Assembly: GCA_014925825.1 (NCBI GenBank)
Contig: JACGCK010000189.1
Location: forward strand, 21,765 to 85,764
Direction: 5' to 3'
Origin: Pholiota molesta
Taxonomy: Eukaryota; Basidiomycota; Agaricomycetes; Agaricales; Strophariaceae
Length of the DNA stretch: 64,000 nucleotides
A program made the position numbers and the translations under genes. Numbering within the stretch: the stretch's first letter is position 1; each line of letters opens with the position of its first letter. Shown here piece by piece: positions 8,388 to 48,500 of this stretch. The notes beneath the pieces were generated by a model. The model did not search any database, was not told where the DNA came from, and was given only the letters and a program-made list of their open reading frames with translations.

Positions 8388-10483
8388 ATGGCCTCAACAA
8401 GGGAGTTCAACTACTTCCCTAATGCTTCGAACACGACCTTCAGTAACTTTACCATCACCCATGCCTCTGGAAATACTGGCAGCTCGGAACGTAATGGTAA
8501 TATTTTTTCTTGCAGCGAAGGACTCTGTTTCTGATTCAAAACCATACACTTAGGATTACGACGCCTGCTCGACAACATTTCCGAAGGTGCTTTTCACGAT
8601 GCCGCCGAGCGGGGCGATCCCCCGAAATGCCACCCCCATACTCGTGTCGCTATCCGAACCGAAATCATGGAATGGATCAGTGCGCCCGAAGCCAGGCTCA
8701 AGTTCATCCTCTGGATGTATGGCCCCGCGGGCTCAGGGAAGACGGCCATTGGACAGAGTATTGCTGAGGAATGCAGGAAGAAAGGTCTCCTCGCCGCGTC
8801 CTTCTTCTTCTCTCGCACCGCCGCCGGCCGCAACGACACGAAACGAGTGGTTGCGACCATCGCCTATCAGATCTCCCTCCATCTTCCCCAGATCCAAGAC
8901 CATCTCTTCACAGCAATCGAGCGGGATCCGACTATCTTTTCCCGCGCGCTTGCCACGCAGATGCAGGTTCTTATAGTGGAGCCTCTGAAAGCACTACCGC
9001 CCTTGTCTCAGCCAATTTTTGTGATCCTCGACGGACTCGATGAAGCTGGCCCCACCTCCCAAGACCAGGCGAATCTTCTGAACGTTATCGGCACAGCTAC
9101 CTCAGAACTACAGCATCTCCCCCTCATATTTCTCGTCGCCAGTCGACCCGAATACGAAATCCGCGAAGCCTTCAATGGACAGCTCAGTCCTCTCACGCAA
9201 TCACTGGTCCTCGATGATACCTACAAGCCAGATGACGATATCAGACTGTATCTCACGTCTACGTTCGAGGAAATCCGCGGCAAACAAGTCAAATTGGGCA
9301 CCGAACTCCCTTCCCCATGGCCCTCTGAAAGCGACGTTGACCGCCTCGTATCAAAGGCATCCGGGCAGTTCATTTTCGCAGCTACGGTGTTGAAATTTAT
9401 TGACTCTATTCGACATCATCCAGCGGAACGACTGGATATTATATTTGGCTTGTCGACTCCTGGGAATGAAACACCGTTTGCATTACTTGACGCGCTCTAT
9501 TCCTACATTCTCTCCTCTGCGGAAGAACCTGCCAAAGTTCTACAGATATTCACAGCGCTTGTGCTGACAAATCCTAATATTTTTCTACGGGACCGGGATA
9601 TCGAGCAGCTTCTGGATCTTGACGTCCGGAGAGTTCTAGTGGATATGCATGCCCTTATATCTGTTCCAGCCTATGAAGATCACACCACTCATCTAAAATT
9701 TCATCACGCCTCTCTCTCCGACTTCTTAATGGACCGATTGCGATCTCATAAATTTTATATCAGTGCGAGTCAGGGGCATATTGACTTGACTCGGCATTGG
9801 TGGAAGGCTATGTCTAATAGCCAATTTCCAGGTCACGATTTCTCCGACTCGGAGTGTTTACACCATTTCATATATCATTGCACAAAATCACCTGCTGGCA
9901 TTGAACTGATAGGTGATCTTGCCCGTTTCGATCTGAAGGAGCTATTGAAGGAATATTGTCGTCCATATCTTCTAATGTACTCACCTTGGAAAGGTTTTTT
10001 TGAATGCATCAAACAACAGGTTGGTCATTTACATTCCATCGGCACAAGATTTACGAACATATTACCTCTAACATACGTCCAACTTAGGCTGGAGATCGAG
10101 AAGATATTTCCCGCAGGATAAAAGCTGAATTTGATGCCTTTATCTTGGACCACTTGTCGAACTACCCACCAGCTCTCCAGACTCACATCCCTACCATCTT
10201 TTCCCTTTCAAGGTTCATAGAAACAGCTGACATCATCCGCCTCTTACTTTGCGATTTCACTGAATCCGTGACAGAGTGTGATAATATTTGCGAACTCGAT
10301 TTTACACTTTTCTATCTCAAAGATCGATACTCTATCGATGATGCTTTTTTTGCTTTATTTCAGGACAAATTCCGGGCTGGAAAATACTACGTATGCGATA
10401 GAAGCTACCTGGCATTGGCAAATCAAATAACCAGAACAGGTACCTACATGCCACGGTATCGTGTAACACATCACATTGGCTAA
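8388..10483 (+). CDS. NACHT-domain NTPase (NLR-like), interrupted by foldback element
   Basis: A STAND-type NTPase of the kind expanded in agaricomycetes, thought to act as an intracellular sensor. Inferred exons are 8388-8496, 8554-10019 and 10088-10483, giving 655 residues. The ATG at 8388 sits in a ccgccATGg context and opens an Asn/Thr/Ser-rich leader. The intron at 8497-8553 restores the conserved GAFHDAAERGDPP and CHPHTRVAI region, upstream of the first long-ORF ATG. Walker A is GPAGSGKT (about 93-100) and Walker B is LDGLDEA (about 195-201). A 68-nt intron (10020-10087, with a ctaac branch site) joins the C-terminal exon. The last ~10 codons and the stop lie inside the left end of the foldback element, so the present C-terminus is truncated. 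The original continuation lies at 14093-15084. Confidence 0.85.
10448..10454. repeat. Putative 7-bp target-site duplication, left
   Basis: ATGCCAC immediately precedes the foldback terminus GGTATCGTGT. ATGCCGC follows the other end at 14093-14099. One mismatch in seven makes this suggestive only. It is supported by the coding frame it restores when collapsed to one copy. Confidence 0.5.
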
Positions 10484-24337: not shown

Positions 24338-26322
24338 CTAAGTTACTTGCTCCAGAATTTGCTTGATACGGTCCATGAGGTCAGGGGAATCCCTTTTGGC
24401 ACCGACAGAAGTGAATGAGGGCCAGTACTCCATGTACTCTGCAGCAAATATGTCTACAACATGGTAATATACTTTACCCTGGTCACTAAAATCCTGTGAT
24501 AAGACAGCATCAGTATGTGGAGTACAATTATGGCTTGTGCTGCATACCAGTTGTTTCAAGCATTGAAGGATATCGGGGCCGATGTTATACCAGAGGCTGC
24601 TTTCAAGAAAGGTTTTGCTGTAGAATGTGCAATTGAATTTCATAAATGCGCTATGAAGTCGCTCTGATGCTTTTGCTTTTTCGAGGAGATTTCGGATTGC
24701 CCACAAACGGCCCAGTTCCCGGTTTACTGCAGCCTTCAAATCATTGCCTGACCAGAGCGGATCCAAGATTAGAGGATGCCTCTCGAGGAACCTGCATAAC
24801 AGGTTTGTCCCGTGTTCACCGAGGTCAATGTGATATTGGTCAGAACGGCTTTTGTCGACGAGAAAGTCAGGAAGTGATGCATGGAGGAATTTCAGCTCAG
24901 CCAAGTACAAGGTGGGGGGCTCGCATAGGATGATGGCCGTCAGATCAGCAAAAATGACATCTAGCTCGCCATCCTCAAGCAGAAATATTCTTTGAATATC
25001 CCTGATACTGGTATTTTTGGTAGTAATCACATAACCAATGATATCGAGGACCTTGTCGAGCGCTTCAACCTGTGAGAAGATGTATTCATAGAGTGCATCC
25101 AGATGTGCGAATGGATTCTGGGAGGATGGATCTCGCAAACGGATACCGCGGATGACTTCGAGTCGAAGAGCCGGATTGGCGCGTGGGGATGATAGATATT
25201 TGATTATGATGGATGCGAAGATGAATTGACCAGATGACTTGGATACGATCTCCTCAACAGATGAAACCGGGGGCCAGTCGATCGGGAGGTAGCGTTTGAG
25301 TAAATGTGTCTCATTGATATCACGGAATTTGTCGACAAGGAAGCGTCGGATGTCGTCTGAGGCTTGTTCGATATCGGAATTGTCGAGTGGGAGTGTCAGA
25401 ACGAGATCTGAAACCTCCTTGCGGACGAATGCTGCCTCGATTTGAGGTTCACGGCGGCTGGCAACTAGAAATATGACAGGAGTCGCCCTGGAGCGAACAA
25501 TGGTACCAAGTAGCTCGACAAGCTCAACTTGATGAGCGCGCTCGAGACATTCGTCGAGACCATCGATCATGACAATGAAATAACACTTGAAATGCGCCTG
25601 CAGCCGGAGAAGAGGCTGAATGATGAGCTTCTGGAGCTGAGATTCCAGTGATTCTTCGAAAATGAGCGGGTTGTTCTCGATGATTGCGTATATTTCATCC
25701 TGAACTTGGGCCTCAGGAATCTTCTGGATGAGCTGATAGACGAGCGTCGCAATGAAGGGCGCCATAGAATTCCGAGTAGGATCCGTCCGATAGAAGAAAA
25801 AGCTGGCAAGCGGAATTTGGGCCTTCTCACAGAGCTCTGCAACAGACTGCATGATGGCGGATTTCCCTCCGCCTGCGGCGCCATGCATCCACATAATCCA
25901 CATTTGGCGGACGAGGAAATCCATAAGGATCCAGTCGTAGATCTGCTTCTGGATGGCTACACGGGTCTCTGGGTGGCATCTGGGAGGATCGACACGATGG
26001 ATGGAGCTATGGAATGCAGAGGTAGCGACACGCTTTTCTAAGAGCTTGAGTCCTGCTGGCAATATTAACACTGAGATGAGAAAACACCCTATCTTGTTCT
26101 CAAAGGGCACATACATCTTATCCGTTTGCTCGAGGTGTCGTTGTGGTTGTGAAATTCATTCACAACATTGACTGGCCCTCCCCCATATGAAATGCTCGGA
26201 TTGTGCTGGTGAATACCACCGCTGAATGAAGTATTGCTCACGTTGACTGGGCCGCTCCCAATCGAAATGCCGCTATGATTTATGTTGTCAAATCTCATGG
26301 ATTCGGATAGAGAATGGCCCAT
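24338..26322 (-). CDS. NACHT-domain NTPase (NLR-like) with duplicated N-terminal motif
   Basis: Second NACHT protein, about 646 residues. Inferred exons, read on the minus strand, are 26322-26115 and 26070-24338, split by a 44-nt intron (gtatgt...ctcag) whose removal keeps the frame. The N-terminal ~69 residues hold a 12-residue motif twice (ISIGSGPVNVSN and ISYGGGPVNVVN). Then come HRVDPPRCHPETRVAI (family linker), Walker A GAAGGGKS (about 133-140) and Walker B IDGLDE (about 238-243). An FLHASLPDFL motif downstream matches FHHASLSDFL in the 8388 gene. The protein ends shortly after a QCLKQLV segment; the first NACHT gene has an intron at the equivalent point. Further exons upstream of 26322 are possible: a gtaagt donor lies near 26406. 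No frameshift seen. Confidence 0.87.
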
Positions 26323-30722: not shown

Positions 30723-30731
30723 AGCCCATCG
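30723..30731. repeat. 9-bp target-site duplication, left
   Basis: AGCCCATCG, directly before the left terminal repeat (TAGTCTCGC). An identical copy directly follows the right terminal repeat at 36862-36870. Confidence 0.9.
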
Positions 30732-30855
30732 TAGTCTCGCTAGCCAGACGTTGTTTCCAAATTGGGTATCTGCTTCAGAAATCGCGACCGATCAATAAAA
30801 TTGATGGCACGAGATACCCCCACAACGTCTGGTGCAGTTGGATGGCCGGACCACC
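30732..30855. repeat. Left terminal inverted repeat
   Basis: Pairs with 36737-36861. Identity is near-complete at the outer 24 bp and high in the inner block (cacaacgtctggtgcagttgg). The middle is more divergent. It contains its own inverted repeat: CCAGACGTTGT at 30744-30754 and ACAACGTCTGG at 30822-30832, with GGGTATC and GATACCC nested inside. Confidence 0.92.
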
Positions 30856-31183
30856 GGTGGTCACAGATACGTGATATTGTCACGCCATTCATCCACGTGC
30901 GCAGTGGGCGCCTACCATAGCCCTACCTACCTCTGTCTGTGATATTGCTCGAGTACTGACTCGTTAAACTACCAAAGGACAATAGAAAATCAATCCAGAT
31001 AACATGTATATTTTTTTTCCAAAAGTCCATATTAAATAACAGGCAATTATCAGGTTTTAAACCTGCTAAGAAGAATTGAGTCAAACTGTAAGGCTTCGGA
31101 ATAAAAATGAAACACTTGAGATTGGTGGACAGTGCTGCCTTGTTAGACATTTTGGAAAATTTATTTTGCATCTACTCATCATC

Positions 31184-34023
31184 ATGAACATCTTCGACAC
31201 TCGAGATATTGACGGAAACGAGTCTGAGGAGGAATACTCTAGTTCTGCTAGCTCAGACTCCGAAGACATACCAATCAGGTCATCTGCAAACGAAGAAGCC
31301 AATATTCTGGAGACGGAATCAGAACCAACCAATACATATTCACCTCTACAAGCCAAGATCAAGCTAGCATTGAACTATTTCGACTCCATTCATCTGAAGG
31401 TTGACGAGTTTCTTGATGGTATAAGTTGGGGAGATGAGGCATGTGTACGTGATGCAAAAATTCGAGTCGAAAGGACGGTCTTTTTCCAGTCACCGAAGCT
31501 TCTATCTATTCTTCAGCGTTGGGCTGTTCCTCCGAGACAGAAAGGTTCAAGCCATGCACGTCCAATAGGTGGCTCCATTGTCATGAATGAATTTGCTCTT
31601 ACACACATTTGTCAAGTCATAAACAAAGAGCTCGAAGACATCTCCAACTTCCTCAAATCACCAACCTCCATTGATATCGATAAGAAGACCTTGACGGACA
31701 CATCTTTCGAAAGCCTTGTCAATAATATGCAGTCTACAACACCAGTCTTGTGGAAATTACTTAGCTCAATTGCCTATCGTGACGGCCAGCAACAGAAAAA
31801 CAAGCGTAAAACATCTCGAAAGGTTCGTTAACAATTTTAATCATGAGTTACAAAACTAAAGACTTAACTTCTAGATTATAGTCATCATCATTGCGATGTT
31901 ATCTTATTCACGTTCCCATCATCGCAATCGCTTTCAGAAACTACTTGCTATATATCTAAAGTTCAAGGGTATATCAGCGAAGGGATTTGATACACTGCAT
32001 GCAATGGGACTCACTATGAGCCATAAATGGACATGTGATGCCATTGAAAGGATATCTGATCACTGTTTGGGGGAAGTTCGGGAGATGATAGGCACGGTTC
32101 CAGCATTTATTTCATATGATAACATGCAGGTTCCGTTTAGAGTCTTCTCACAACGACTTGACAACAAAGACGAGTTTGGTGATGGGACCGCGGCGACGGT
32201 GTATTTCAAGCATGACGCAAAACCATTGATGAAAGATGCCAATGAAAAACTTCGTCAACAACGAGCACTTGGCCAGCAAAATCCACTTACCGAATGGGAG
32301 ATAATGGACTTGGCGATGAAGACCTATCCCCATATCGAGACATATTCTGAATACTATATCTTGCGATTCCTTCTTGATGCTCCAGATTTTAATCTCAAGA
32401 CGTACGGCGCAAGAAACAGCGAGCACTTCAAGCCCCCTGCACCAATCTATGCTCTTCCCTGTGGCGAAAAACATCGGACCCTCCAGTACCTGCTAGGTAC
32501 AGTCAATATTCCCGAGGCAAGCTACGAAAACAATGAGAAACTCATCAAGCAGTGGCTGGATCAATTAGGGTGGAATAGTCCTGAAGAGCAGCAAAAAACA
32601 GGCATTGAACGCATAGTTGCTTGGTGTGGAGATCAACTCACCATGGATCGTCTTCGGGGCCTATTCAAGTACCATGCTGAGGACTTGAATCCATTTGAAC
32701 GACTTGACTATACTGTCCTTGTGTTTGGGTGGTTACATTGTCAAATGGCGTTTGCAAACTCACTTTACAAGCAGTACTTTGGAACAACCCAAGGGCGAGG
32801 CCTTCATCAAGCATTTGTTCTTCTCGAAAAGAAGGGTCTGACCAAGCTTCAAACCAAAGGACCATTTCACCATGACCTCGAAGAAGCTCTTTATGAAGTC
32901 GCAGAAGCACATTTCCGAGAAGACTGGTTGGAGGTGACAAAGACTACAAGCTTGTCAGAGCTTCGAAAATATACTCCCGCAGAGCTTCGGAGCTTTGCGA
33001 AAACGATGGTTCGCAGACGCGCTTCAACGGAAGCACTGAATCAGATGGATAGAGATCCTGAAAAACGAGATGAGCAGCTTCGTCAAATCATAATGTGGAA
33101 CCGTGACATACTGCAATACATCATCCTTGACCACGCTTTAAGTGATGGTGACGTTGGAGTTGTGGAAAACATGTTACCTCACCTATTCTTCCGTTTCCAG
33201 GGTGGAGGGAATGGTAAATATGCCGGTGAAATCCTTGAACTTCTTCAGGGCTTGCATCGTGAATGGAATCCTGAAGTTCGGTAAGTAATTGCTTCTGGTA
33301 CCCAAATAGTTACTTACTCCTTTAATAAGGGATTTTGTTCGTCAACATTGCTGGTTGATTAATTCCACTGGAAGGCCACATATGTTCTGTCCAGTCGATA
33401 AGGCCCAAGAACACAACATCAAAGATATGAAAGTAACGTACCGCTCGGAAGGCCCCAACATCAAGTGGGATTACTTCAAAAAACTCCATCCTGCAATTCC
33501 TCTCATCCGGATAGTAACTGATCATATCGAGCAAGAATTTGGTACCTATAAGCGTGGTAAAAAGCATACGGTACCAAAGCGAGAACAGGATATCATATTC
33601 CTCCAGAAATCGTATCACGAGTGTGGCTATCACACTTATATGCCAGGCCGAAACATTGAAAGAAAAGAGGACAAAGCTCAAGATCTTATAGAAAAGGGGA
33701 TTGAGAAACTACATAGTGGTAAGGTGTTATCGAAATGGGACCATCAGCGAAGATTCGAACGCTCCACCATCGAAGACTGGGGCATGGATTCATCAGATGT
33801 TGAGCACGAAGCAGGCTCAACTGCCGATCCTAGCAGTGTAGATGCAAGCGATGGAAGTGGAGGCAGCATGGAACGAGTAGCCATACGTGGTTTAGGCCGT
33901 GGTCGTGGTGGTGGTGGACACAGTGTCGGAAGTGACGACGATGGAATGGATAATGGTGATGGTGGTGACGGAACAGATACAGGCAGCGGCGGAAGTGGTG
34001 ATGAAGATCCAGGTGGCTTTTGA
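31184..34023 (+). CDS. DUF6589-domain protein, candidate transposase
   Basis: About 912 residues from inferred exons 31184-31822, 31875-33280 and 33330-34023; all three join in frame. The start is the first ATG of the open frame (MNIFDTRDIDG). The N-terminus is acidic and Ser-rich. The central part carries signatures I associate with Pfam DUF6589: FISYDNMQVPFRV (D near 295), AWCGDQLTMDRLRGL (D near 466), GPFHHDLEEALY, and DVGVVENMLPHLFFRFQGGG (E near 644). The order D...D...E with a conserved G-D-Q recalls RNase-H-fold DDE nucleases; this is inference. Two thirds along is CPVDKAQEHNIKD. The C-terminus is Gly/Asp-rich with GRGRGGGG, RGG-like. Location inside the inverted repeats, opposite a helicase, supports a mobilisation role. 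Confidence 0.85.
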
Positions 34024-34106
34024 CGTGTACGAGGTCTTGCCTGTGGTCGTGGATGTGACAATGGTGTTGGCAGCTAGACGAGACGAGAGATGAATCAATA
34101 ATTATT
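34024..34106. other. Convergent intergenic region of the transposon
   Basis: Only 83 bp separate the stop of the DUF6589 gene (+) from the stop of the helicase gene (-). The two transcripts must share or overlap their 3' processing signals; an aataattattttat stretch lies at 34096-34110. Confidence 0.7.
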
Positions 34107-36609
34107 TTATGCTTCATGAGACAACTTGATGCTTACTTGGTAATTGATAAATGCACCAGGAGCTGGTGAGGTTGATAGGAACAATGTTGAATCAGATGAT
34201 GGTAAAGACTCGCTAATAGTGGAGTCAGAGCTATTGAGGACTGAAGTGCCAGCGAGAGGTGGACGTCGAGCTCGTTTCGGGGGTGGTTTCAATGCCGCCT
34301 TCAGTGCTGCAGCTGCTTGTCGAGCAGCCACTTTTTGCTGCTTCCGGTTCTCTTTATCTGCCAGTTTGGCTTGCTGAGCCATCTCCCTTTCTCGTCTTTT
34401 TTCTTCCCTGCGTCGGTCTTCCACTATACGTCTCTCCTGTTGTCGAGCTTCAGTCGCCGCAGATCTTTCGGCTGCTTTTGCTCGCTTGGCTGATTCTCGT
34501 CGGTCTTGTACAAAGGAATCCACCCTTCGCAGTACACCCAAGACATCGTCACCATGGCGATCTACAAATGCCCACTGAATGTTATCGCGCATGTCATCGA
34601 CAGATTTTATTGTGAGGAGTGAAGCGAGCAATTTGATGACAGAATCGGGCATGAAAGCAGCAACAGTGAAGGGCCCCGGTGTATAGTGATGATGGACGAC
34701 ATTGTACCGCCAATTCTGTAAGGCGATTCGTGCTTCCTTTAGGTGTTCTCCTTGCCGATGCCGAGCCTGTGACTGTGAGAGAGTCATGCCACGTTTTCCG
34801 TTAGCATTTGCTGATTTCGAAGGTGTGGAGTGGACGCTGTTGCATGCATCATGGGTAGGCAGTGGTGTTGTAGGCCGATCCTCGGCTGCTATAGCACCCA
34901 CAGCATTTGAATCGACATCCATAATGGTACAGTTATCACAGCAGAGATGAGTTGGGGCTATAGAATAAAACAGTCAGATAAATGTGTCCAGAAGCGCTCT
35001 AGGAACATAAAAGACTTACGTCGGTGTCGGGGATTATGAAAATAGGTGTCAGCAATATCTCGACGGCACCCAGTCGTTTCGATCCAACGCCGAAGAGCAT
35101 CTTCGACCTTTTTCTTCCACTCGCTCTCAATGTTCTCGGCATCGAGTTCAACCTCGCTACCCTCTTCTTCATCTGCTCCAAGTTCTTCCGGAAACGTGTC
35201 TTCAAGCTCGCCAGGAGGAGCGGCCTTGCGTCGTCGTTTTTTGGTCCGCTCAAACATTGACTTTTCGACCAGGAGGATTGCTCGCGCGTTGATATTGGCA
35301 GATCTGCCAGCACGCCCGGCCCGTTGAGTCCATACTGCTAACGAGGAAGGGACACCAAATTGAATCACTTGCTCGATGTCTGGGATGTCGGCTCCCTATG
35401 TGTGTGTGCATAAGAACTTGAGAAAGAGCAATGATAGATTAAATACACACCATTCCCGCGGCTTCTGTTGCTATCAGGATCCTTACTTTTCCCTTCCGAA
35501 ATGCTTCCATAATCTGATGTTTCGCGCGTTTGCTCCGATGAGAGTGAAGATAGGCAATAGAGTTGTGCAGGCTCGATGGAAACCAAGATCTAATAGTCCT
35601 CGTCAAAATTTGCGACATGAGAACGGCGTTGACGAATATAATCTGCTTTGGGATGTCGTCTTGTCTTGAAACATTGGCTTCACGAGTGATGTGGGGGCGT
35701 AGGGCTTCGTAGTCAATGGCAGAATTCATTCTGTGGACGTGGTATGAGATATTGGGACGGTCGTTCCCAAGGTTCAAGAAGAAGCTGGTGGCTGCATCGA
35801 TTCCGAGTGACAATCGAATATCGCGTAATGTTTGAAGGGTGGCCGTGGCAGTCGTCGCAAGGACAGGAATATGTGGTGGGAAGAAGGCTCGAAGTTTCGC
35901 CAGTTCGGCGTATGCTGTCCGGAAGTCGCCGCCCCATTGACCAATGCAGTGCGCTTCGTCGATGATGATCGCGACGATATCCTTGAAGTTGGAGTTGGTG
36001 AGAGTGCGCCGAAAATCTGAATGTTTGATGCACATCTCTGGCGAGGCGAGGATGCCCTGATATTGATTGTCTTCAAGCCCCTACAGGTAAAAGGATTACA
36101 GAAAAGTCAGCAGATGTGAAGGATGAAGAAGTAGTTATTGCACCTTCTGGAGTTCACGGCTCCATGAATCCCCGTTTACCGCTGTTGCAGAAATCTGCAT
36201 CCTTCGAAATCGGCTGGCCTAATCAATATTCTAAGTTATTTAAAGGGATTATAAATGTGAAAGATCAATAAGAACATACCTGGTCTTCTTGTAAAACCTT
36301 GAGGGGCGAGATGATGATACACTTGCTTTTGAGATCAAGCAGGAGTGGCATCATGAATGGCATGGTCTTCCCAGCACCAGTCCCAGCAATAACAATGCTG
36401 TCGAGGCCCAACAGCATGGCTTCTGTAACATCCACCTGCCAATCATGAGGTGGACACCCAAAGCGCTCTCGGAAAAGCTGGTGGACCCGGGTACGAGTTG
36501 CATGTGAGTCGTATCCATTTTCATTGGTGGCCTTTTGTATGGCTGCTCTGAGGTTCCGGTAGGAGCGAGCCCATTCGGGGCTTTCAGAGCATGGATCGAG
36601 AGGAATCAT
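34107..36609 (-). CDS. RecQ-family DNA helicase of the transposon
   Basis: About 753 residues from five inferred exons (minus strand): 36609-36280, 36218-36144, 36080-35451, 35395-35020, 34957-34107; every junction keeps frame. Motifs in order: WQ of motif 0 (about 57-58), Walker A AGTGAGKT (75-82), DEAH (176-179), ATTATAT motif III (about 210-216), IATEAAGMGADIPD motif V, and QRAGRAGR motif VI (369-376). A RecQ-type zinc site follows: C455 in GCRRDIADTYF, then C476, C477 and C480 in CCDNC. The last ~270 residues form a basic coiled-coil-like tail (EDRRREEKRRERE, PPPKRARRP). No HRDC domain seen. An upstream in-frame ATG at 36705 would add 32 residues. It would unwind DNA 3'-5', plausibly at the transposon ends. 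Confidence 0.9.
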
Positions 36610-36736
36610 AAGCAAGGGGAATACATGAATAGTGCAAGTATTTAGTAGCGAGGCACGAAGATAAACTAAACAAAGTGTCGCGCGACGCGCAAAAACACGG
36701 TGCACGTGCTACATTGAGCGTCACAAATGACGTATG

Positions 36737-36861
36737 GGTGGTTCGGCCGTCCAACTGCACCAGACGTTGTGGGGGATGTCCGAGCCATCATTTTTTACTG
36801 ATGGGCTCAAATTCTGAGCGACATACCCGATTAGGATAACAACGTCTGGCTTGCGAGACTA
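36737..36861. repeat. Right terminal inverted repeat
   Basis: Reverse complement of the left repeat, ending ...GCGAGACTA at 36861. It likewise contains an internal inverted repeat (CCAGACGTTGT at 36760-36770, ACAACGTCTGG at 36839-36849). Confidence 0.92.
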
Positions 36862-36870
36862 AGCCCATCG
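36862..36870. repeat. 9-bp target-site duplication, right
   Basis: AGCCCATCG, identical to 30723-30731, directly abutting the right terminal repeat. Confidence 0.9.
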
Positions 36871-41737: not shown

Positions 41738-44405
41738 TTATATTGTAGCCTCACTGGCGAGAGATTCCTCCTTAGAATTGCCGTTCTGGCTAAACGCGCT
41801 TGCCTGAATGTTGTAAAGCTTTGCGTATTCTCCTTTGGTTGATATAAGATGCTCATGAGATCCAGTTTCAACAATCGATCCATCTTTCATGCATCTAGTG
41901 ATCGCGCAGACAAAATCTTGTCAGCAAAGAAGATCTAGAATGATTTAATACTCTCACATAATCATATCAGCGTATTTTGTGAGATGTCCGAAACGATGCG
42001 TAACGAATACCATCGTCTTGCCCTCTCGGACGTCGAGCAATCTTTTGAATAACTGCAGCTCTCCTTCTGCGTCCAACGCGGAGCTAGGTTCGTCAACAGC
42101 GACGAACTTGACTTTCCCTGACTTGAACCGCATGAAAGAGCGCGATCTAGAGGTAGTAGTAAATTATACATCAGCATCCAAGAAAGTACGGATTAAATTC
42201 GACCTACGCGACTATGCGTTGTTTTTCACCGCCGGATATATCTATCGCCTTTTTCAGCTTCTCGAGCTCCCCGTATAGCGGATGCGTTTTGTTTCCGTAC
42301 AGGTTGAATTGAAATGTATCGATGAAAGGGTTGAGGCTAGTCTGTAAGCCATTCTTGAGTTTCTCTATGGACGGCAGCGATCCACCTTCCTCGGCGGCTT
42401 CTCTGATCATTGTTGCATCGGAAGAGAACTCGGGATAGCCAAGGCCAATGTTCTCTTCAAGGCTCACTGGATATATCAGATTATCTTGACTGAGAATGGC
42501 AGTGGCTCGATGAATATCTTCTGTGCGATAGTCGATCGATGGATGGCCATCAATCATAATCTTTCCGGATGTCGGGTCATAAAGACGCGAGAGCAAGCGA
42601 ACTAGTGTAGACTTCCCGCTTCCGTTTTCACCGACGACAACGACAAGCTGCCCTGCGTTGATTTTAAGTGAGATATCACTCAAACTGGGAGTGGTCTTCT
42701 GGCTTCCTGGATATGAAAAAGAAACTTCTCTGATATAGGGTAAGTCACCGCATGTCGGACTAGCATAAAATAACGGAAAGTAAAAACCTTAGTTCAAATG
42801 ACATCCCTTTATCGGTTGATTCGTCTCTCTTCTCTGTTGGGAGCGGATAAGGAATGTTTCCATCCTTGAGAGTATTGACTACATTCTGCGCGTCGTAGAG
42901 CGAACGGATGGATTTAAGACTGCGCCTGAATTGCTCATTTGTTCTGAATAATGTCTCTAAAGACCATCGAAGAGTTGTAGATGACCGCTGAAGAGTAGCA
43001 AGCGAAGCCACAGAGAATTTGCTAGGGTTAATAATCGCATTCAAGGCGCAGTATATCTAATAGCGAAATATTAGCATACATTAGCCTTCAAATTCGTAGG
43101 ATTAAGACTTTACCATAGGTAGGTCATTCAAAAGTTTGGTAAACATATCAAACGTTGGAGAAGGTCTGCGGCCGTAGCTACGGTATGGAGCCTCGTCGTT
43201 GCAGTCCCCCAAATTTGCATGGGCCTTCTCATACTCTGGGGAAAGTGTCAGTGGTTCGTCATAAAGTGCATATACAGTAGAAACTACCATGAACGATCCA
43301 TCCATTGAGGTTATTTGCGACGATGTCTTGACGATACGTTCCGTCTGCGAATGCCTCCAGGGCCTTCCGTCGTTGATAATCTTTGTTGTCAACAAAGGCG
43401 AAGCATACTAGACAAGCTAAATCAGCACAAATCAAGTAGACGTGATCCTTTAATTCATACCTTTATGCCATATATATTTCGCAAATAGAGCAGACGTAAT
43501 GGGCTTGCTTATGCAGAGGAGGGCAAATATAGGCCCGCCTGTGTGCCGCGATAAGTGTACGATCAGGGCAAGTTGGCTGAACACCGTCAACAATTCTGTT
43601 AGAAAACGAATTATATCCTCTAATGATTGCCATGCGTCACTCGCAGAACCTTCAGGAGTACTGGCGATTTCTAGCGACGTTTTCAGCAACAGTGATTTAT
43701 GAGTCAAATAAGAATGGTGTCTCCCAACCTTGCGAAGTCGGTATATCTACTTGAAGCTTAGCTGACGTTCCAAGATCAAGCGTAAGCAATTAGTTGGCAT
43801 ACAACCTTTAGATATTTATCTCCCTTTCTCACCTTTCATCAAATAGAGGTTGAAATACGAGGTTACACGACTTCTCAAAATAGAGAGAGTGACGTCTCTG
43901 AATTTAGAAGTTCCTTCAGCCTTAACCCAACATTCAAAGCGCCAAATTAACAGGAAAGACCAACCCGTGCCAGCCAATATAAGCGACGAACAAAGAACTG
44001 CTAATTTGCAATACAATCAACCACAGGATCCCTATCTTGTCCGGATTCCCTGTCAATAGTCCTTGCTCCACCTACTGAATACATAAGCGAAGAGCCGTAT
44101 GGCATGGAAAGATATCGTATTATACGCACTTGGGACAGCAGCGAGCTCGAAAGGTGCAAGAGAATAGCGGCTTCTACACCCTTCCATGCCTGGCACATGA
44201 GGAAGAAGGTAAAATGGCGGGGTGATATGCGATAAATATCGAGGAAGAGTCGACTGTATAACGGATATGCTGATTTGATGATGTCGAGAAGCCGGCGTAA
44301 ATTCAAGCTCGGAGGATGCCCGAGCTTCAGTTTCCAGAGCCCAAGCTGTACCTCTTCAATAATGATATCAGAGTCAACATGGACCTTCTGTTTCTCATCA
44401 GACAT
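41738..44405 (-). CDS. ABC transporter (half-size, fused membrane and ATPase domain)
   Basis: Starts at ATG 44405 (MSDEKQKVHVD) and ends at a TAA near 41738. Multiple short introns. The N-terminal half has hydrophobic segments (QISSSLFVAYIGW; LTVFSQLALIVH) and the family word VDIPTSQ. The ATPase domain follows: SFSYPG, Walker A GENGSGKST, Q-loop ILSQDNLIYP, signature ISGGEKQRI, Walker B VKFVAVDEP, D-loop SSALDAEGE and switch His in VFVTHRFG, then MKDGSIVETGSHEHL. Complete catalytic motifs suggest an active exporter; substrate unknown. The exon around 43880-44070 reads cleanly only if a frame change or extra intron lies near 43935. Confidence 0.85.
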
Positions 44406-44574
44406 GATGAGGCCTTAGAGAAGGGTACGAGGGGATGTTTTGTGGTTGGGCATTGACAACGATTATCGAGACGCTTATAACCTTTTTCGAGATTACAGCC
44501 GCCGATTCTGCCACGAGGAAATAGATCGAGGAGACCCGAATATGGAGCGTGAAAGAGTAATATTCTGCTAGGCG

Positions 44575-45030
44575 TTTTAATATGCTGGCAGTCCCCATCC
44601 TTATGGCAAAGCAACTATTAGCCATTGTACCACTCCGTGAGGCAGGCGAGTCATCTCTACGCGCATGTTGGAAGAGCGGCCACTGATTATTTCCAAATAC
44701 GGCGATCCTGCCTATCCGCAACACGACTATCAGCTAGCCCCTATGTGCTTTGACGTGCGCTGTGGTGCGCATGCTTTGATCTGTGGGCGCAGCCCTTGCG
44801 TCGGGCCACATATTCTTATAAAGGACTGGCCGTCGGGAGCTATTGATGATAAGTACTCGATAAGTAGTCATATCTTTTTCTAATGCCCCGGGTCCAAACG
44901 CCAAACAGGGTTTCTGATTGATTTAACGCGTCGAAGAGAGCATCGAGGTGTGAGCGTGGAGATACACGTTTTTTCGGCGCGTCGTCGGCGGTGCGCTTGG
45001 GTCTGTAGGCTGCCCTAGGCTGCCTCGTGA
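44575..45030. repeat. Isolated copy E of the duplicated-block right end
   Basis: Matches about 4860-5300 of copy A (gcgttttaatat, catccttatggcaaagcaac, gatctgtgggcgcagcccttgcg). It sits directly upstream of the ABC gene start and does not extend into any gene. Confidence 0.6.
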
Positions 45031-45523
45031 ATGCCTCTTTTAAGAAGATCACAGACTCCTGAGCACGCAGACTACTCAATGATTAAAAAACTACATGATC
45101 GTTCTATAGCGATGTCAATAAAAATTCAAATTTGGTACAAGGCCGTGGCAATTTCTCCAGGTCAAGACTCAATACCCCTCTTTCAAGAACAATCTGACAC
45201 TCTATAAACAACTTTGGGAAGTGGTAGAGGAGAGGACGCCTCGGTGCAAAGGTCAAATCATAGCTCGCCTAAAACATCCGGACCACACGATAGATCCAGC
45301 TGTGTCTTTCTCATAAGTATCTCGACATTGGACCTTCTGATCATGGCTCCAGTAAGCTTTGGGATATGAGTTTTGGGTACTGCCACCACGGCAATACTTA
45401 TCACATGACTCGTGATTTTCCGATCCCGATACGCATCCGCCGTTCGCGTCCGCGGCTTTGCTTCTTACCACCACAACCAACGTTTTGGATACTATTTTTC
45501 TTGAATACCATACTTCTTGGACC

Positions 45524-48500
45524 ATGGACATAAACCATGGATATGGGTCTGGCGACGTCGGAAAGGCTGGTGAAGCACCGACAGTACCTGCAAGGCCTAA
45601 ACCGAAGCTTTTTTCGATGGCTCAGAGCCACGCTCTTCTGGAAAGTAAACGATTGAACACTTCTCATCTCTCAGAACAGCAAAATGTCTTGAATACTCGA
45701 ATACGGATGGACTCTGCTCAGCCGCAACGCAAGACGGCTCTGCAGGCCCCGCGCGCATCTCGTTATCTCATCTTTCGAACGCAAATCCAGCGAGGACTTC
45801 GACTCCTGTCTCTGCTCCTAGACTCAATGCATCATTGTACAACACCGAACGTCTTGAAAGTAACATGGAAAATGGTATGTGGTCTTATAGCGATCACTTC
45901 CTCGACTGAATTTTGCCTACAGTCAATTCTTCTCCGGCATTGACCTCTTTTGAGTCTCCAGACCGCGCATATATTCAACAAAAAGGCCTTTTTCAGTTGC
46001 TCCAGATCCTCAGCGCACATTTCGACTATCCGCTCTTTATCACACGCCGGAAACACCGCGTCAACAGGCTAACGACACGACAGCCCAGCTTGGGTCTATG
46101 GGCTCAGTCGGCAAATCACAGGGGAACGTGAAGGAAAGAGATAATATGGTACGTATTTATACTATCTGAGCCCGCGTCGAACCATATCCCTCGCTCCAGT
46201 TCCAATACTTCAATTCAACTCTTTCTGAAAACGAGCAACTGCGCGCCGAAAATCGACACCTTGAATCCACGAATGCACAGCTCTCTCGCAACATGGACGA
46301 TTATCGCTCAAATCTCAACGTCCTCAACGAGCAGCTGAGCTCTGCGACTTCGGAAGTTAAGAATCTAAGACCAGCATTGGCATCCGCTCGGGAGCGACTT
46401 GCCGTGAACGAAAGCGAGATCGCTACACTGAAAGCTAGCCTCACTAACACTAAGACGGAGATGGACACTACCCTAGCGGCGCATAATTCTCTCAAGGAAG
46501 AACACGCACAGGAGACGCTTGAGAATGATAGATTGAGAGCGAGCGTCGAGACCGCTAAGAAAGGCATCGCTAAGCTTCTCATTGAGCGAGTCCTTATAAA
46601 ATTTCTTCTTTCGACGATTAACGTGCTAGGCTAGATATGCTACTTTGGGCGAACATTTCAGGGAGTTGAAAAAAGGACACGATTCGCAGAAATCTCTTTA
46701 TACCGCGGTGGTCAAAGAATTCGAACAAACTAAAACGCTCGCAAAGTCGGGTCTTCAAGGTAACATTTCCACGCATATATTTGAACAATATGTCGTTGCT
46801 CATTTTATATTAGCTCTAGAGCCTATGCTCGACGATAGCAACACCATGGCCCGCGCTCAAGATACCAAGATCATTTTCAAGGAACTGCATGACGATCTCC
46901 TGGCTTGTAAGTTCCCTATCCACCCTCTGAACCGTTTTCGGACGTCCTCTAAATACCGCCTATATGCAGCCCAACAAGTTACCGACCTTCTTCGAAACAA
47001 GCTCCATCACCAAAGCTCCCAGCTCGCCGATGCTCAGAGCCGGGTCAGCGAGCTCGAAGAGGAGAAGCGGGGTTCGCTGAAGGAACTTCTCGCCGCACGC
47101 CAGGATGCGAAGCGGGAATATGAGCTGCTCATGGCTGTTGGTTCGTGTTCCTGGCCTTTGTCGCATTTTGACGCGTTCCTGAGGAAGTGAGCTGTAGAAG
47201 CGCAAATCGGAGAGCTTTCGGCGCGGTTGTCCGAGAGGGAAAGGGAGTCTATGGATGCGCTCACGACTGCTGCCATTGGTGAGGTTGAGTTGAAAGCTGC
47301 GAAAGAACAGTAAGTTGCCTATGATCTTTGTTTTCCGTTTACTAAAATTCATGAAATACAGGATCGATCGCTATCAAAAAGAAAACGAAACCCAAGGGCT
47401 GGAATTGTGTTCTTTAAGAAAGGTCAAAGAAGAGTACGTTTTGATTCCGAATTGTGTTTAGTTTGCTCAAATTTTCGAAAGGAATGTTTCGTCTCTATTG
47501 GCGCTTCAGGACGTAATCAACACTCGCGATAAGGAAATCATAGCCCTCAAGGCAGATGTTAAAGCGCTGAACGAGTCGAAATCGGAATTACGTGCTCTGT
47601 GAGTTTGATCTCGCCGACGAATTCAGCGTAGATTTGTTTACAACACGCGTTCATAGCCTGGCTGAAAATAAAAAGAATCTGGCAGAAGCGGAGACGGAAC
47701 TGAGAGCCAAGGAGACGACCATCAACACTTGCGCTAGGGATGTTGTCTCTCTAAATGCGGATCGGAAGGCGCTCATGGAATCGAAAGCGGAATTGCAAAC
47801 ATTGTAAGTCTCGCCACCGTCAATTTACGGGCTTGGATCTGATGAGCATCTGTAGACTGTCTGAAGCGAAGGAAGGCCTCGCGGACAAAGTGGCTGAGTT
47901 GAAGTCGAGGAACCCGAATGAGGATTTGCTGATCAAAATACGAGAACTCGAGACTACGTGCGGTTCTCTGAAAGCGGCGTTGGAAGAGTAAGCCATGAGT
48001 TTATTGACCTTCGTCTCTTTCACTTAGCATTTGCAGGTCGCAGGAACAATGTATCTTACGCGAGAGGTCGTTGACGAAACTTGAATCCCAACTGACGAAG
48101 AAACTGCACGACGCTGAGAGAGCGAATGTCGAATTGTATCGGATTTCCTCGTTTCGGCTATCGTTTTCCTTTCGAATTTGATCATGCTTTCAGGACGTCT
48201 TTTAATACAGCGCTTAGGGAATCGTCCGCCAGTGTTCAGGACCAGCTCAAAACTGTTCAAGCAGAGTTAAAGGAGGCCTTGAATACGGCGTCGGTGGCGA
48301 TTGAGAAACGCTCCGCCCTTGAAAGAGGCGAAAAAGCTGAACAAGAACGGCGTCAGAAGTAAATTGATATTTCATTGACTCACTTGATTTCGTGCACTAA
48401 GCAATCTCTTTTTCTTCAGCCTTCTAGCCGAAATTGCAGCTGCGAAAGTCAGGGGCTATTATTGGATTCTGATCGTCTTCTGATGAGCTTTTAGACGGAA

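Follow-up and report, generated by a model that had tools for sequence, protein, structure and literature searches.

A 64,000-nucleotide stretch of the genome of the agaricomycete Pholiota molesta (contig JACGCK010000189.1, positions 21,765 to 85,764; hereinafter, the window) contains a complete, apparently recently inserted transposon of 6130 bp that carries two intact genes, one for a protein of the family DUF6589 (PF20231) and the other for a RecQ-type helicase. Taken together, the terminal sequences, the genomic comparisons and the protein models make us rather confident that this DNA transposon is autonomous and of the AcademH kind; DUF6589 would be its RNase H-fold DDE transposase and RecQ the dedicated, co-evolved partner.

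Structure of the element and evidence of its movement

The transposon is delimited on either side by an exact 9-bp target site duplication (TSD), AGCCCATCG, and by terminal inverted repeats of approximately 125 bp (126 alignment columns, 81% identical, E 3.3e-25), the outermost 24 bp of which are 96% complementary (Table 1). The sequence CCAGACGTTG occurs four times in the window, both strands considered, and all four occurrences are located within the repeats, two per repeat in opposite orientation, a pattern that makes them candidate binding sites of the transposase. The interior consists of two convergent intact genes, a DUF6589 gene with three exons on the plus strand (912 amino acids and a stop codon) and a RecQ gene with five exons on the minus strand (753 amino acids and a stop codon); both gene models were spliced by hand at GT..AG introns, with open frames, and are predictions from the DNA sequence. 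The duplication, the inverted repeats and two complete multi-exon genes had been described in a sequence-only reading of the window, and the coordinates, the alignment of the repeats and the open spliced frames confirm that description.

The empty site that the same reading had proposed to seek was found on contig C90 of the same assembly. The left flank of the insertion is 99% identical to C90:328700-329300 and the right flank is 97% identical to C90:329292-329927; these matches overlap by exactly the nine bases AGCCCATCG, and the 200 bases read at this position form a seamless, uninterrupted site. C90 additionally matches window positions 45001-45800 (95% and 98%), where order and orientation are likewise conserved, the two points lying some 1 kb farther apart. 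Because C90 is collinear with the window, this segment included, it very probably represents the other haplotype, with the insertion being heterozygous. That C90 instead contains a paralogous repeat, in which case the insertion would not be heterozygous, appears quite improbable: the insertion flanks do have copies elsewhere, at 67-81% identity, whereas the matches on C90 reach 99% and 97% over the left and right flanks and resume in order and orientation at 45001-45800.

A 176-bp derivative of the element, located at C134:1478-1653, joins 82 bp of the right end to 95 bp of the left end, with one base shared, is 100% identical and bears its own 9-bp TSD, TATATAGCC; it may have moved as a short element or may have been produced by deletion after insertion. 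An older relative, ~165 bp long and 85-86% identical, is present at C533. The probable empty haplotype and the 100%-identical mini-derivative support the recent movement that had been suggested for the element. Of the two inner candidate binding sites, one is missing entirely from the C134 derivative and the other for the most part.

The predicted transposase and its probable helicase partner

DUF6589 very probably is a transposase. In a structural comparison of the confident models obtained for two divergent DUF6589 proteins, the P element transposase, Hermes (hAT) and RAG1 ranked first, at 6-11% sequence identity; the models share with the P element, hAT and RAG1/Transib proteins an RNase H-like DDE core and a helical insertion. 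To our knowledge, none of these three groups carries a RecQ gene. The RNase H positions in the models are D310, D481 and E725 (P0003) and D255, D417 and E666 (P0158), placed on the first strand, after the fourth strand and in a late helix, respectively, as expected of DDE transposases. These residues are conserved at 90% or more in 77 and in 60 proteins, and both aspartates are invariant in 8 divergent proteins, in some of which the glutamate lies beyond the end of the frame. In the DUF6589 protein of the window, D295, D466 and E709 are the candidate catalytic residues. The transposase function originally proposed for DUF6589 is a prediction supported by the fold and the conserved D/D/E in the two models. 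Between the second D and the E, where the hAT/P superfamily has C/DxxH according to an excerpt of PMC9587614, DUF6589 proteins have GxxH instead, with H516 conserved in at least 90% of 77 proteins; hAT elements also usually generate an 8-bp TSD, as stated in a portion of PMC12730594, unlike the 9 bp here. A Foldseek search with the first DUF6589 model (of the P0003/P0158 pair) returned no match at E <=0.001, and a PDB sequence search with the exon 2 frame returned a single row at E 0.55.

Among the matches listed by three homology searches (118 of 118, the best 120 of 193 and the best 120 of 153), all named ones come from Agaricomycetes, as judged from species names, and the others are unnamed. 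The second and third of these searches, partly aimed at animal or Academ relatives, scored no more than the 8000 candidates that had the most words in common, so the lack of animal matches says little.

The second protein is, by sequence, a RecQ helicase. The RecQ motif set comprises motif 0, Walker A, DEAH, QRxGRxGR and the zinc-binding CRR..CDxC signature, and each of these is present in the helicase of the element. The spliced protein matches the Pfam families DEAD (E 3.1e-23) and Helicase_C (E 1.8e-19) and, weakly, PF16124 (E 0.042, below the cut-off of that family), and its best solved relatives in the PDB are RecQ, WRN and BLM. The Pfam search of the DUF6589 exon frames gave no match for exon 1, and the charged tail of RecQ exon 5 has no Pfam match above the cut-off.

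Several lines of evidence connect the two genes. A RecQ match lies within 8 kb at 31 of the 36 DUF6589 loci detected in the assembly and is encoded on the opposite strand in 31 of 31 cases (random placement, ~1.4%); the layout is convergent at 23 loci and divergent, with RecQ and DUF6589 pointing apart, at 8 (C40, C25, two in C257, C180, C19, C36 and C613). The identity matrices of the two proteins are strongly correlated (r = 0.976 with 19 loci; r = 0.961 with the 15 that remain once near-identical copies are removed; p = 0.0001); this comparison used 19 of 21 loci, C119 and C98 being left out on account of a short or missing helicase match, and single stretches rather than whole proteins. 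For the copies in C46 and C603, the ratio of non-synonymous to synonymous substitution rates (dN/dS) has values of 0.138 (666 codons) and 0.158 (487 codons); a value of 0.06 for C76/C456 was not used, the synonymous divergence being saturated. Because of the frequent pairing, the co-divergence and the low dN/dS, which points to purifying selection in this copy pair, RecQ looks like an old, selected partner of DUF6589, dedicated to it as the sequence-only reading had surmised. It is very unlikely that RecQ is a passenger gene dispensable for transposition. Such a role would fit the 5 of 36 loci without a RecQ match within 8 kb, although at C98, which is among these five, a diverged helicase can be recognized by eye; the pairing at the other 31, the co-divergence that extends down to 15-25% identity and the low dN/dS imply long joint selection.

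Table 1. Features of the transposon (window coordinates)
Feature	Position	Strand	Comment
TSD, left copy	30723-30731		AGCCCATCG, exact; occurs once at the empty site (C90:329292-329300)
TSD, right copy	36862-36870		AGCCCATCG, exact; single copy in the C90 empty site
Transposon	30732-36861		6130 bp; bounded by inverted repeats and 9-bp TSD; absent from collinear contig C90
Left terminal inverted repeat	30732-30855	+	Tip TAGTCTCGC
Right terminal inverted repeat	36737-36861	-	Tip TAGTCTCGC
Candidate transposase binding site, outer left	30744-30753	+	CCAGACGTTG; putative function, from occurrence pattern
Candidate transposase binding site, inner left, inverted	30823-30832	-	CCAGACGTTG; putative function
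Candidate transposase binding site, inner right	36760-36769	+	CCAGACGTTG; putative function
Candidate transposase binding site, outer right	36840-36849	-	CCAGACGTTG; putative function
DUF6589 exon 1	31184-31822	+	Hand-spliced, open frame
DUF6589 exon 2	31875-33280	+	PF20231, E 6.8e-90; candidate catalytic codons D295 (32118-32120), D466 (32631-32633)
DUF6589 exon 3	33330-34023	+	PF20231, E 3.2e-25; candidate catalytic codon E709 (33409-33411); stop 34021-34023
RecQ exon 1	36280-36609	-	Motif 0; Walker A GTGAGKT
RecQ exon 2	36144-36218	-	Hand-spliced
RecQ exon 3	35451-36080	-	DEAH; RecQ-type QWGGDFR loop
RecQ exon 4	35020-35395	-	Motif VI QRAGRAGR; GCRR..YF part of zinc-binding signature
RecQ exon 5	34107-34957	-	CCDNC zinc-binding end, then charged tail

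DUF6589 loci across the assembly

The PF20231 search of the assembly yielded 61 matches that were grouped by hand into 36 loci, 21 of which (20 fetched loci and the window) were examined for ends. Further copies with matching ends, each with its own 9-bp TSD, had been anticipated, and matching ends with an exact 9-bp TSD were indeed identified at 15 of the 21 loci, the window included; all these duplications differ in sequence and show no evident target consensus. Two mini-derivatives are also flanked by an exact 9-bp TSD. Because most of the ends were found by requiring a TSD, the count of 15 alone is no test, and two controls serve in its place. Applied to the 20 fetched loci, the end-finding rule (a 9-bp match and similar tips, at least 4 kb apart) identified 12 pairs, compared to 0.4 on average when the letters of these loci were shuffled; and among five loci where the ends were fixed before the TSD was read, four agree (C19, C25, C257:119637 and C134) and C40 disagrees. 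The 9-mers of an element's own two ends match in 16 of 17 cases and crossed ones in 0 of 272 (the C456 outer pair described below included, the inner pair left out).

At the remaining loci, C119 has inverted repeats of ~650 bp for which no TSD was found; no ends with a TSD were found at C55 and C11, and no TSD at C36, where the far end lies beyond the stretch reached; C40 has both ends and no TSD; and C456:180784 shows an 8-bp duplication only. At C40, the left tip is present twice, at 24641 and 24687, 46 bp apart, and there is no TSD at the right end, a configuration read as a rearranged end.

Near-identical copies exist (99.95% and 98.7% over 5743 bp). The assembly search detected no other full copy of the subfamily of the window element, whose DUF6589 segment shares no more than 25% identity with any other in the comparison. 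C456 contains a nested insertion, in which a DUF6589/RecQ element (160193-166211, TSD TCAGCCCAG) interrupts a deletion derivative of 759 bp; the latter is of the C25/C19 type, a subfamily other than that of the inner element, and has the TSD CGACATAGT. The outer pair, 159533-166310, was considered as the element itself and rejected, given that it is this 759-bp derivative interrupted by the inner element.

Some additional features of these loci and of the window were observed. C400 (131837-139809) contains two mirror-image DUF6589/RecQ pairs, with RecQ matches of equal score ~0.7 kb apart and one pair of DUF6589 matches also of equal score, which could be an inverted duplication or an assembly effect. 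Near the DUF6589 element of C55, positions 43501-45515 contain frames of a Copia-like retrotransposon, with integrase-like and CCHC zinc finger features recognized by eye. Elsewhere in the window, NPHP3_N/NACHT NTPase domains are encoded in two long open frames, at 8535-10121 (plus strand) and 24338-26155 (minus strand); weaker copies of the sequence flanking the insertion, on C90, C100, C39 and C455, perhaps reflect a NACHT gene cluster.

Affiliation, mechanism and implications

The element probably belongs to the AcademH lineage of the Academ superfamily, a possibility that had been raised from the sequence and is supported by the RecQ gene and the 9-bp TSD. Terminal inverted repeats are a feature of AcademH elements, and the window element has them. 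In the excerpts of the relevant reports, RecQ is mentioned for Academ (PMC3627910), the TSD of AcademH is given as 9 or 10 bp (PMC10045372) and AcademH is reported in Basidiomycota (PMC10799480). The window element resembles AcademH in its RecQ helicase, in its 9-bp TSD, which the empty site confirms, and in its fungal host. It was filed as probably AcademH because of the helicase and the TSD, and because both AcademX and KolobokH differ in TSD length: for AcademX, a passage of PMC10045372 gives 3 or 4 bp and a nuclease where AcademH has the helicase, so that this lineage was rejected for an element with a 9-bp TSD and a helicase. Possible differences between the elements described here and AcademH are the presence of both convergent and divergent layouts and the DUF6589 label: the literature searched did not contain DUF6589 by name, PF20231 appeared only in one unrelated paper, and IPR046496, which we take to be the InterPro number of DUF6589, did not appear at all.

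A KolobokH element, that is, a member of the Kolobok superfamily with RecQ, known only from fungi, would likewise combine this helicase with a fungal DNA transposon, and, according to a part of PMC9587614, RecQ is even found on the complementary strand in one red alga Kolobok. The TSDs already refute this affiliation, which we give practically no chance: that of Kolobok is the 4-bp TTAA, in contrast to 9 bp of varied sequence here, and in the same excerpt RecQ is found downstream of the transposase domain, whereas all 31 paired loci here have RecQ as a gene of its own, encoded on the opposite strand. There is a somewhat better, if still small, chance that DUF6589 transposases form a superfamily distinct from Academ that acquired RecQ and the 9-bp stagger independently, with the same mechanism in another lineage. 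The likeness to Academ lies in RecQ and the TSD; the homology matches listed remain within Agaricomycetes or are unnamed; and Kolobok shows the uptake of RecQ by another fungal transposon superfamily (PMC9587614, in part). Against this stands the fact that RecQ with a 9-bp TSD is the combination reported for Academ/AcademH, with AcademH present in Basidiomycota according to the excerpt of PMC10799480. In a bolder proposal, DUF6589/RecQ elements would form a transposon superfamily of their own, diversified since ancient times in mushroom-forming fungi, with transposase and helicase as an obligate, co-evolved two-protein machine; the helicase would take part in strand transfer or in the processing of ends and would help to set the 9-bp stagger. 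We similarly regard this as unlikely.

For an autonomous transposon of the AcademH kind, the following mechanism can be envisaged. DUF6589, acting as an RNase H-fold DDE transposase (D295, D466, E709) in which a large helical insertion precedes the E, would recognize the terminal repeats, probably via the paired inverted CCAGACGTTG sites, excise the element, presumably by cut-and-paste rather than by copying, and integrate it at a new target with a 9-bp stagger, which would yield the TSD. RecQ, expressed from the opposite strand, would most likely unwind DNA at the ends, in the strand-transfer intermediate or at the donor gap.

With these findings, DUF6589, a family of "unknown function" represented in many Agaricomycetes, can be assigned a probable role as a DDE transposase, and candidates for its catalytic residues can be named. 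In the annotation of mushroom genomes, DUF6589 genes and adjoining RecQ-like genes are likely to be transposon genes, not host genes. The full element, its empty site and the 176-bp derivative together constitute a natural system for addressing the role of a transposon-borne RecQ, which AcademH and KolobokH have likewise called into question.
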